Source of the DNA: Brachybacterium endophyticum
Lineage (GTDB): Bacteria; Actinomycetota; Actinomycetes; Actinomycetales; Dermabacteraceae
NCBI RefSeq assembly: GCF_003130585.1
Contig: NZ_QFKX01000003.1
Span: 310,001 to 374,000, forward strand
Length of the DNA stretch: 64,000 nt
Direction of reading: 5' to 3'
Each line of letters begins with the position of its first letter. The first letter of the stretch is position 1. Below, one piece after another: positions 14,970 to 62,663 of the stretch. Both the position numbers and the translations under genes were made by a program. The notes beneath the pieces are model-generated. The model saw only the letters and a program-made list of their open reading frames with translations, was not told the origin of the DNA and searched no databases.

Positions 14970-14976
14970 CATCCGC

Positions 14977-15062
14977 GGTAGCGTGTCCGAGCGGCCGAAG
15001 GTGCATCACTCGAAATGATGTGTGGTTAATAGCCACCGCGGGTTCAAATCCCGCCGCTACCG
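14977..15062 (+). tRNA. tRNA-Ser (CGA)
   Basis: 86 nt with a perfect 7-bp acceptor stem (GGTAGCG with CGCTACC), discriminator G, no encoded CCA, and a long variable arm as required for serine. The anticodon stem CATCA/TGATG frames the loop CTCGAAA, so the anticodon CGA (15011-15013) reads UCG. The T-arm GGGTTCAAATCCC is intact. Confidence 0.97.
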
Positions 15063-15094
15063 CCCTTGACCAGGGGTGCGTCCCTGGTCCGATC

Positions 15095-15124: not shown

Positions 15125-15242
15125 CGTGTCCGGGGCCGGGGCCGGGGCTGGGCGCCGTGGGCCGGGTTCCTGGTCGGCGCGGGTTGCCGGCCCTGCGCTG
15201 ACCGAGACTGCCGGAGGCCGGGATCCGTGCTCGGGCCTCCGC

Positions 15243-15296
15243 GGGACGTATGGCGCACTCGTTGCCATATATGGCACACGATGCGCTGTGCGTCCC
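15243..15296. repeat. Palindromic repeat family, copy A
   Basis: A 54-bp interrupted palindrome, GGGACG at one end and CGTCCC at the other, centre TGCCATATATGGCA. Its right half TATGGCACACGATGCGC is identical to copy C. Most outer mismatches to a perfect stem are G-U compatible, while the 5 bp next to the core do not pair well. Confidence 0.75.
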
Positions 15297-15304
15297 GTCG
15301 AAGC

Positions 15305-15438
15305 CCACGTACCTCCGGAATCGGTGCCACGTACCCCCGGAACCGGGCCCACGTACCTCCGGAATCGGTGCCAGGGACGTCCGCCATCGGAAGCCCCGGC
15401 CCTCCGGAATCGGGGCCCACGTCGCTACGGCATCGATC
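15305..15438. repeat. Degenerate 22-bp tandem repeats upstream of the GH35 gene
   Basis: Three clean 22-bp units starting CCACGTACC and containing CCGGAA (15305-15326, 15327-15348, 15349-15370; the first and third are identical) are followed by three decayed units to 15438. They begin eight bases after palindrome copy A and end about 105 bp before the GH35 start. Confidence 0.7.
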
Positions 15439-19311: not shown

Positions 19312-19521
19312 GGGGGCGTGGCCGGGGCCCGGGCTGGGGCTGGGTCCGTAGCCGGTGCCGATGCCGGTGCCGGTGCCGGTGCCACTGCCAGTGCCGGGCC
19401 CGTGGCCGGGCCGGGTGCCGGGTCCGAGGCAGGGGTGCCGGACGCCGGGTGCCGGACGTCGGGTCGCGGAAGTCGGTCACCGAGCCCCGCCGAGCGTTCC
19501 CTTCGGACCCGGTCGGGCCTG

Positions 19522-19581
19522 GGAGGGACTAATAGCGCATCATCTGCCATATACGGCAGATGATGCGCTATTAGTCCCTCC
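19522..19581. repeat. Palindromic repeat family, copy B (near perfect)
   Basis: 60 bp that folds into a 30-bp stem with a single A-C mismatch next to the centre and no unpaired loop. Each half runs from GGAGGGACTAATAGCGCATC towards the core TGCCATA. It lies between convergent gene ends. There is no U-tract, and the length is far beyond a normal terminator. Confidence 0.85.
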
Positions 19582-19667
19582 GCGGCCCGGATCACCCTGG
19601 CGGGCAGGCCCTGCGGGCCCGGCTGGGCTTGGCTGGACCCGACAAGGCCCGACAAGGCCCGACACGA

Positions 19668-48241: not shown

Positions 48242-48280
48242 ACGGGGCGGGGAGCCGGTCGATCCGGCTCCCCGCCCCGT
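48242..48280. terminator. Strong bidirectional terminator between glpK and the amidase gene
   Basis: Perfect 17-bp arms 48242-48258 and 48264-48280 with a 5-nt loop, between convergent genes. Confidence 0.8.
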
Positions 48281-58593: not shown

Positions 58594-58979
58594 TCGCTGG
58601 TGGGGCGGGGCCCGCGGGGCGAGGCTCCGCGGGTTCCCGCGCGGCCCGGCATGCTCCGGAGTCGGCGTTGGGCTGATCGTGAGCGGTTGGGCGGGCTTCG
58701 GCGGGACTAATAGCGCATCATCTGCCATATATGGCACACGATGCGCTATTAGTCCCTTCCAGGCCCTGACCTCTCCCGGTAGTCGGCCTGGCCACCCCGC
58801 GAAGGCCCTGATCTCTCCTCACAGCCGCCCCTGGCCGTCCTCCCCGCCGCGTCGCCAACCCCGCACCACCCCCGATGTGGCGTTGGTCCTGCGCACGTCC
58901 CCGCCCCGTCCCCTCGACGCGCGCCGATCCTAGGCTGGCCGCACCAGCACGCCGCTGGGCCACCGATGGACGGAGTGCC
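58594..58979. other. Intergenic region with palindrome copy C, 386 bp
   Basis: Between the isomerase and MFS genes on the same strand. Holds palindrome copy C; otherwise no gene. The MFS promoter is not identified. Confidence 0.6.
58703..58756. repeat. Palindromic repeat family, copy C
   Basis: 54 bp, 25 of 27 stem positions pair. The left half matches copy B (GGGACTAATAGCGCATCATC then TGCCATA); the right half carries TATGGCACACGATGCGC as in copy A. Confidence 0.85.
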
Positions 58980-62618: not shown

Positions 62619-62663
62619 CACGTGGCGCGCGTCGTCCCCTCAGCCGACGACGCGCGCCACGTG
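62619..62663. terminator. Bidirectional terminator between putP and the hydrolase gene
   Basis: Perfect 18-bp arms 62619-62636 and 62646-62663 with a 9-nt loop holding the hydrolase stop. The right arm is the last coding part of the hydrolase, and the left arm mirrors it. Confidence 0.7.

Follow-up and report, generated by a model that had tools for sequence, protein, structure and literature searches.

What are long palindromes doing between the genes of an actinobacterium, and to which protein, if any, do they belong? The question is raised by a 64,000-nucleotide stretch of the Brachybacterium endophyticum genome (contig NZ_QFKX01000003.1, positions 310,001 to 374,000; "the window" below), in which such a palindrome occurs three times. 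We consider it probable that these palindromes are dispersed cognate sites of a chromosomal nuclease whose gene the same palindromes bracket. In several species, a homing-endonuclease-like gene stands between copies that share one species-specific sequence, which points to a partnership like that of repetitive extragenic palindromic (REP) elements with the REP-associated tyrosine transposase (RAYT), formed here with an unrelated enzyme. We have demonstrated the repeat family, its spread through the genus, the linkage of nuclease genes to palindromes with matching species-specific arms, the conservation of a predicted active site, and the different states of one locus.

When the outer GGGCC/GGCCC arm is included, each window copy spans 76 bp, and its center is TGCCATATATGGCA or a near variant:

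15232-15307, no strand assigned: palindrome copy 1, 76 bp, the most degenerate of the three, with the core TGCCATATATGGCA at 15263-15276
19514-19589, no strand assigned: palindrome copy 2, 76 bp
58692-58767, no strand assigned: palindrome copy 3, 76 bp

The initial annotation had described three near-perfect intergenic palindromes, the best with a 30-bp stem, one mismatch and no U-tract. All three are where it had placed them, and a codon-usage gene caller made for this analysis confirmed that they lie between genes. Copy 2 pairs at 29 of its 30 inner positions, as described, and copy 3 at 26, but near-perfect is the wrong word for copy 1, with just 20. By reading, no T run follows either arm in the three copies, so the U-tract of an intrinsic terminator is indeed missing. 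A core-plus-arm pattern with up to three mismatches gave five strand matches in the window and none in 100 shuffles. In the whole genome, a covariance model built from 15 copies gave 56 strand matches at 28 sites (13 on contig C1, four on C10, eight on C11 and three on C13), every one of them intergenic. The family is thus well above the handful (fewer than about five) that would have spoken against it and falls short of the hundreds to which the early estimate of "dozens to hundreds" had extended. All 28 sites are on these four contigs, which total 2.73 Mb, and none is in the other 824 kb.

The family extends through the genus. The first model found matches in 10 of the 58 genomes searched, all within Brachybacterium. 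For a second model (R2), we used 42 of 65 centered copies, from nine genomes; the 23 excluded were mostly near-duplicates, plus one that was not properly centered (L107). R2 matched 26 of the 38 genus genomes at E<=0.01, including 17 that had contributed no row to the model, so the repeat is present in relatives, as the initial annotation had required. Among 297 sampled genomes of the order, 16 matched at E<=1e-4, six of them outside the genus; the match in G146 (L188) was rejected since it was not palindromic when inspected. A pattern search also found the repeat in B. halotolerans and Ca. B. merdigallinarum. The first exact pattern had no match in genome_contigs, which possibly does not include the B. 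endophyticum genome, and a second pattern matched there in Brachybacterium and in two metagenome-assembled genomes outside the phylum (Bacteroidales and Lachnospiraceae). No stretch of viral_contigs matched the one extended-core pattern used, a narrow test of phage origin.

What is conserved is the pairing. The alignment of the 42 copies is ungapped, and in 29 of its 35 pairs both partners have changed (382 cells, where shuffles average 167). Considering that rows were centered on best palindromicity, which favors pairing, the slide control matters: 85% of cells pair, compared with 32-41% in that control. The arms are species-specific over their whole length and share an outline of outer GTC/GAC or GGGCC/GGCCC, a middle GG/CC and an AT-rich core. 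More than one type can coexist in a genome: a second subfamily with GTGGGGAGCC/GTGAGGAGCC arms (sites L321 and L323) accompanies the main one in G030, and two types, TGTCRYGG... and GGTCGGGTACTGGCG..., are found together in G058, G028 and G004.

In B. endophyticum and its relatives G026 and G030, a pair of palindromes brackets a gene of about 306 codons. The B. endophyticum gene (C11:292499-293413) lies about 16.6 kb to the left of the window start, with palindromes on both sides. In these genomes, the gene product carries a nuclease domain of the PF18741/DUF559 type (E 2e-8 and 6e-7, short of the Pfam cut-off). By fold and conserved residues, the catalytic domain is of the EDxHD/Vsr type, a predicted nuclease, and the N-terminal part weakly resembles AbiEi. 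The residues E205, D232, E242, D244, H249 and D258, a putative active site, are invariant in all 59 aligned homologues (L241, L250 and L257, with stops in their reading frames, were left out); the assignment of catalytic residues among them is presumptive. Homologues (E<=1e-8) occur in 35 of the 38 genus genomes. A role as a defense nuclease is possible: when five of these proteins were submitted to PADLOC, the B. endophyticum protein and L242 had no match, and the others matched AbiEi models at the N-terminus or nuclease stretches of large defense proteins (Hhe, PDC-S37); one of the five matched a homing-endonuclease model. The initial annotation had proposed a REP-like repeat with a co-occurring protein, possibly RAYT-like. 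The class was right and a protein does co-occur, but it is this nuclease: PF01797, the Y1 transposase family, was the one transposase family searched and was found in none of 24 Brachybacterium genomes, including that of B. endophyticum, with positive controls in 5 of 14. The RAYT/Y1 transposase is accordingly rejected as the partner.

The linkage holds across the genus. Among the first 30 nuclease loci, six have palindromes on both sides and seven more on one side, including loci in G008, G015, G007 and G010, genomes without any R2 match. We then defined a strong palindrome as one scoring >=15, at least 40 bp long and within 600 bp of the gene, with a poly-G artefact (L242) filtered out. Such a palindrome stands at 27 of 67 distinct nuclease loci, at eight of them on both sides, and at 2 of the 43 loci, from two unrelated genes, that served as controls (Fisher p 1.6e-5); one of the two positive controls is the solo palindrome of B. 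endophyticum at fumC. The 67 loci exclude the repeat loci L236-L238 and keep L241, L250 and L257, and the 43 controls remain from 60 after removal of 17 that held the nuclease. The nuclease loci are not independent, and after grouping, 25 of 55 groups at 80% identity and 14 of 22 at 60% have a palindrome.

Enzyme and palindrome also appear to differ together. Beside distant nuclease paralogues (30-45% identical), the palindromes have quite different sequences. Two paralogues in G012 stand beside palindromes of different types, and in B. endophyticum a distant paralogue (32%; L274, C1:821727-826209) has a different 61-bp palindrome 354 bp away. Over 36 pairs from nine genomes, nuclease and palindrome identity correlate (Spearman 0.54, species phylogeny not removed). 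If each nuclease has its own sites, a palindrome beside a distant nuclease should predict a dispersed family, and this prediction held in G032, which has no R2 match: an 18-letter pattern taken beside its nuclease L264, with two mismatches allowed, gave 25 strand matches at 16 sites, two of which are the bracketing copies, and none for the reversed control. The same pattern gave 0, 3, 1 and 2 matches in G009, G008, G023 and G015 (reversed control 0, 1, 1 and 1). Of ten G032 loci inspected, palindromes passing the applied threshold and filter were seen in six and not in the other four. Outside the genus, we examined 16 PF18741 loci in six genomes. At one locus in G146 and one in G259, the domain stands between two palindromes of closely similar sequence, and a dispersed copy in G259 (L186) resembles the bracketing one. 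In G136, G267 and G149, one palindrome lies near a PF18741 locus, and the remaining eleven loci, several of which encode very long fused proteins, have none this strong.

The history of individual loci adds to this. The ten closest homologues occupy two places, either next to an RND-type neighbor (G026, G030, G017 and B. endophyticum) or at fumC-phoH (G018, G024, G012, G058, G031 and G019, of which G031 by one neighbor only); these anchor names were read from sequence, with no family search. The fumC locus was read in 30 genomes, and in 13 of them a nuclease homologue lies within 1.5 kb of fumC. B. endophyticum has a solo palindrome there, and in G026, G030 and G017 the fumC-phoH interval is 116-120 bp, without a family palindrome and not alignable by eye to that of B. 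endophyticum. One locus therefore exists in three states: nuclease gene, solo palindrome, and neither. Elsewhere, positions are kept and sequences differ. Of eight sampled G017 sites, seven recur in G026, four identified through both flanking proteins and three through one. At six of these seven, the palindromes are 0.55-0.71 identical, similar to pairs from different sites (mean 0.64; within G017 0.71), for which the better of the two orientations was taken, whereas shared sites were scored in one; the seventh (L100) is 0.97 identical. Some B. endophyticum sites are also shared with relatives and differ in their arms. With the same positions holding divergent palindromes, the sequences seem to be rewritten by lineage; the flanks of the six pairs also align poorly (0.65-0.81), so an excess rate over the flanks is unproven. 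Two G030 sites without a G026 partner (L321 and L323) gave no empty site: at L321, the stretch aligns through in G026 at 92.5% with a palindrome match present, and at L323, a different palindrome is there in B. endophyticum.

These observations could be joined in one mechanism. A dimer of the nuclease would bind the two-fold-symmetric palindrome and cut it as double-stranded DNA, and repair of the break may then copy one palindrome onto another site. Through such copying, the family would spread, stay palindromic and be rewritten in concert in each lineage. The working would be REP/RAYT-like with an unrelated enzyme, and probably through the repair of breaks, not through single-strand transposition.

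Several points weigh against this. On the one hand, cleavage, binding and movement are inferred, and none of them was observed. Every one of the 16 G026 sites sampled could be paired with a G030 site through at least one flanking protein, and 14 of them through both; in 15 such pairs the inner 62 bp are 0.91 identical, compared with 0.83 for the flanks. The sites are accordingly old and better conserved than their surroundings, so that no recent mobility is caught and no target duplication is readable. On the other hand, the association is incomplete. A strong palindrome is missing near 40 of the 67 nuclease loci, G006 and G059 have R2 matches and no nuclease at E<=1e-8 (both assemblies exceed 500 contigs), several of the 26 matching genomes have just one to three strand matches (part of them inspected), and in genus g27 the dispersed palindromes found do not match those beside its nucleases. 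The protein assignment is also thin: the B. endophyticum protein scores 29.8 bits against PF18741, where the cut-off is 38.2, and has no AbiEi match in Pfam.

The alternative that survives best, which we nevertheless consider unlikely, is that the palindromes are chromosome-organizing or regulatory binding sites. The AbiEi-like part would bind them, as an auto-operator at its own gene and as a regulon or nucleoid anchor elsewhere, and nuclease activity would be incidental. The age and conservation of the sites between G026 and G030 suit this, and the symmetric blocks that never vary resemble points of protein contact. However, the species-specificity covers whole arms and not just those blocks, the active-site residues do not vary, a single locus can hold either the nuclease gene or a solo palindrome, and the genes next to the window copies are of ordinary metabolic or housekeeping type, without a common theme. 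Copy 1 lies between divergent genes, with a tRNA-Ser gene (14976-15065) on its near side and a prolyl oligopeptidase gene on one side and a GH35 beta-galactosidase gene on the other; copy 2 lies between the convergent GH35 beta-galactosidase and NYN-domain genes; copy 3 lies between tandem genes, about 0.1 kb downstream of an rpiB-type isomerase gene. This rpiB-type gene with its downstream palindrome is present twice in the genome (58108-58810 and L109:4360-5120), with 89% DNA identity over 761 alignment columns and 100% protein identity over 156 aa.

More doubtful is a miniature inverted-repeat transposable element moved by an unidentified transposase, with the nuclease as a passenger. Dispersed intergenic copies, some paired a few kb apart, would fit, but the gene that is repeatedly bracketed is the nuclease, also in distant paralogues with unrelated palindromes, and the search for a Y1 transposase was negative as described above.

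Still less credible are transcription terminators or RNA-processing hairpins, the latter also suggested by the initial annotation. Convergent genes flank 15 of the 28 B. endophyticum copies, compared with 15 of 74 long intervals at the same loci (p 0.0016), and the element folds as RNA at -75.4 kcal/mol (z -10.2). The other B. endophyticum copies lie between tandem (7) or divergent (6) genes, the divergent ones counting against this reading, and the copies of relatives are 36 convergent, 36 tandem and two divergent, so that of 103 copies in all 51 are convergent, 43 tandem, eight divergent and one not assignable. If the RNA had a function, G·U should be tolerated above A·C on the transcribed strand, but the 43 tandem copies have 53 G·U and 51 A·C mismatches, and their proximity to the upstream stop is not significant (27/43, p 0.13). 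At gathering scores, no Rfam family matched the elements, and the sole match in the window was a tRNA. An RNA hairpin under selection and a known RNA family were therefore rejected, the processing signal is left without support, and the nuclease linkage would stay unexplained. Two other strong inverted repeats in the window are one overlapping a predicted tRNA-Thr gene (62619-62663) and one between convergent genes that looks terminator-like (48242-48280).

Least credible of all is covariation by mutation alone, in which template switching, known to correct one arm of a quasi-palindrome from the other, would yield double changes without selection or enzyme and could act on top of nuclease homing, but which explains neither why many sites of a genome share one arm sequence nor why the palindromes are linked to nuclease genes, while the sites shared by G017 and G026 suggest that arms change together across the sites of one genome.

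We therefore prefer the palindromes as sites of the bracketed nuclease. A broader proposal is more tentative, and we hold it as a possibility somewhat short of even: that actinobacterial PF18741/DUF559-type nucleases homing on long two-fold-symmetric palindromes, which they would cut as double-stranded DNA, and rewriting the copies by break repair, form a new class of genomic replicator. Every lineage would then have a palindrome sequence of its own at conserved sites. Considering that palindromes bracket such domains also elsewhere in the order, in two or more other genera, many of these proteins could be palindrome-homing enzymes. If true, this would give a candidate function to nucleases of unknown role, indicate that REP-like repeats can also emerge together with an enzyme that is not related to RAYT, and supply ready-made species-specific enzyme-site pairs with which concerted evolution at fixed bacterial positions could be tested directly.

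In the titles and opening abstract lines covered (Brachybacterium palindromes, REP/RAYT/REPIN, DUF559, Vsr and MTES_1575; subscription journals and preprints not covered), no association of palindromes with a nuclease was found. The EDxHD homing endonucleases such as I-Bth0305I, said to dimerize on a site just under 60 bp long (PMC3943268), and Vsr share the fold of the catalytic domain and its conserved acidic and histidine residues. Unlike them, the present enzyme has a different N-terminal part and is encoded by a free-standing chromosomal gene bracketed by palindromes, with putative targets repeated genome-wide; unlike AbiEi antitoxins, its AbiEi-like part is fused to a nuclease. The REP elements described in PMC3733652 are 20-40 bp long with a GTAG tag at one end, whereas the Brachybacterium element is about 76 bp, symmetric to its center, without a GTAG end in the copies shown, and present in 28 copies, not more than 100. 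The CGTC-tagged REPs of the same paper, palindromic repeats said to be without a dedicated transposase, carry their tag at a single end, and the Brachybacterium palindromes are symmetric and in many species have GTC/GAC at the two ends. A close parallel is REP/RAYT itself, in which, according to PMC2817692, the RAYT gene is "always" bracketed by two REPs and palindrome and enzyme differ together between species. Both systems combine dispersed intergenic palindromes with a bracketed enzyme gene, and in Brachybacterium, too, the two appear to vary jointly from species to species, but the enzyme here is a predicted PD-(D/E)XK/EDxHD-type nuclease in place of the Y1/HUH enzyme. With the nuclease replacing RAYT, the bracketing is seen on both sides in B. 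endophyticum, on both sides at 8 of the 67 loci and on at least one side at 27.
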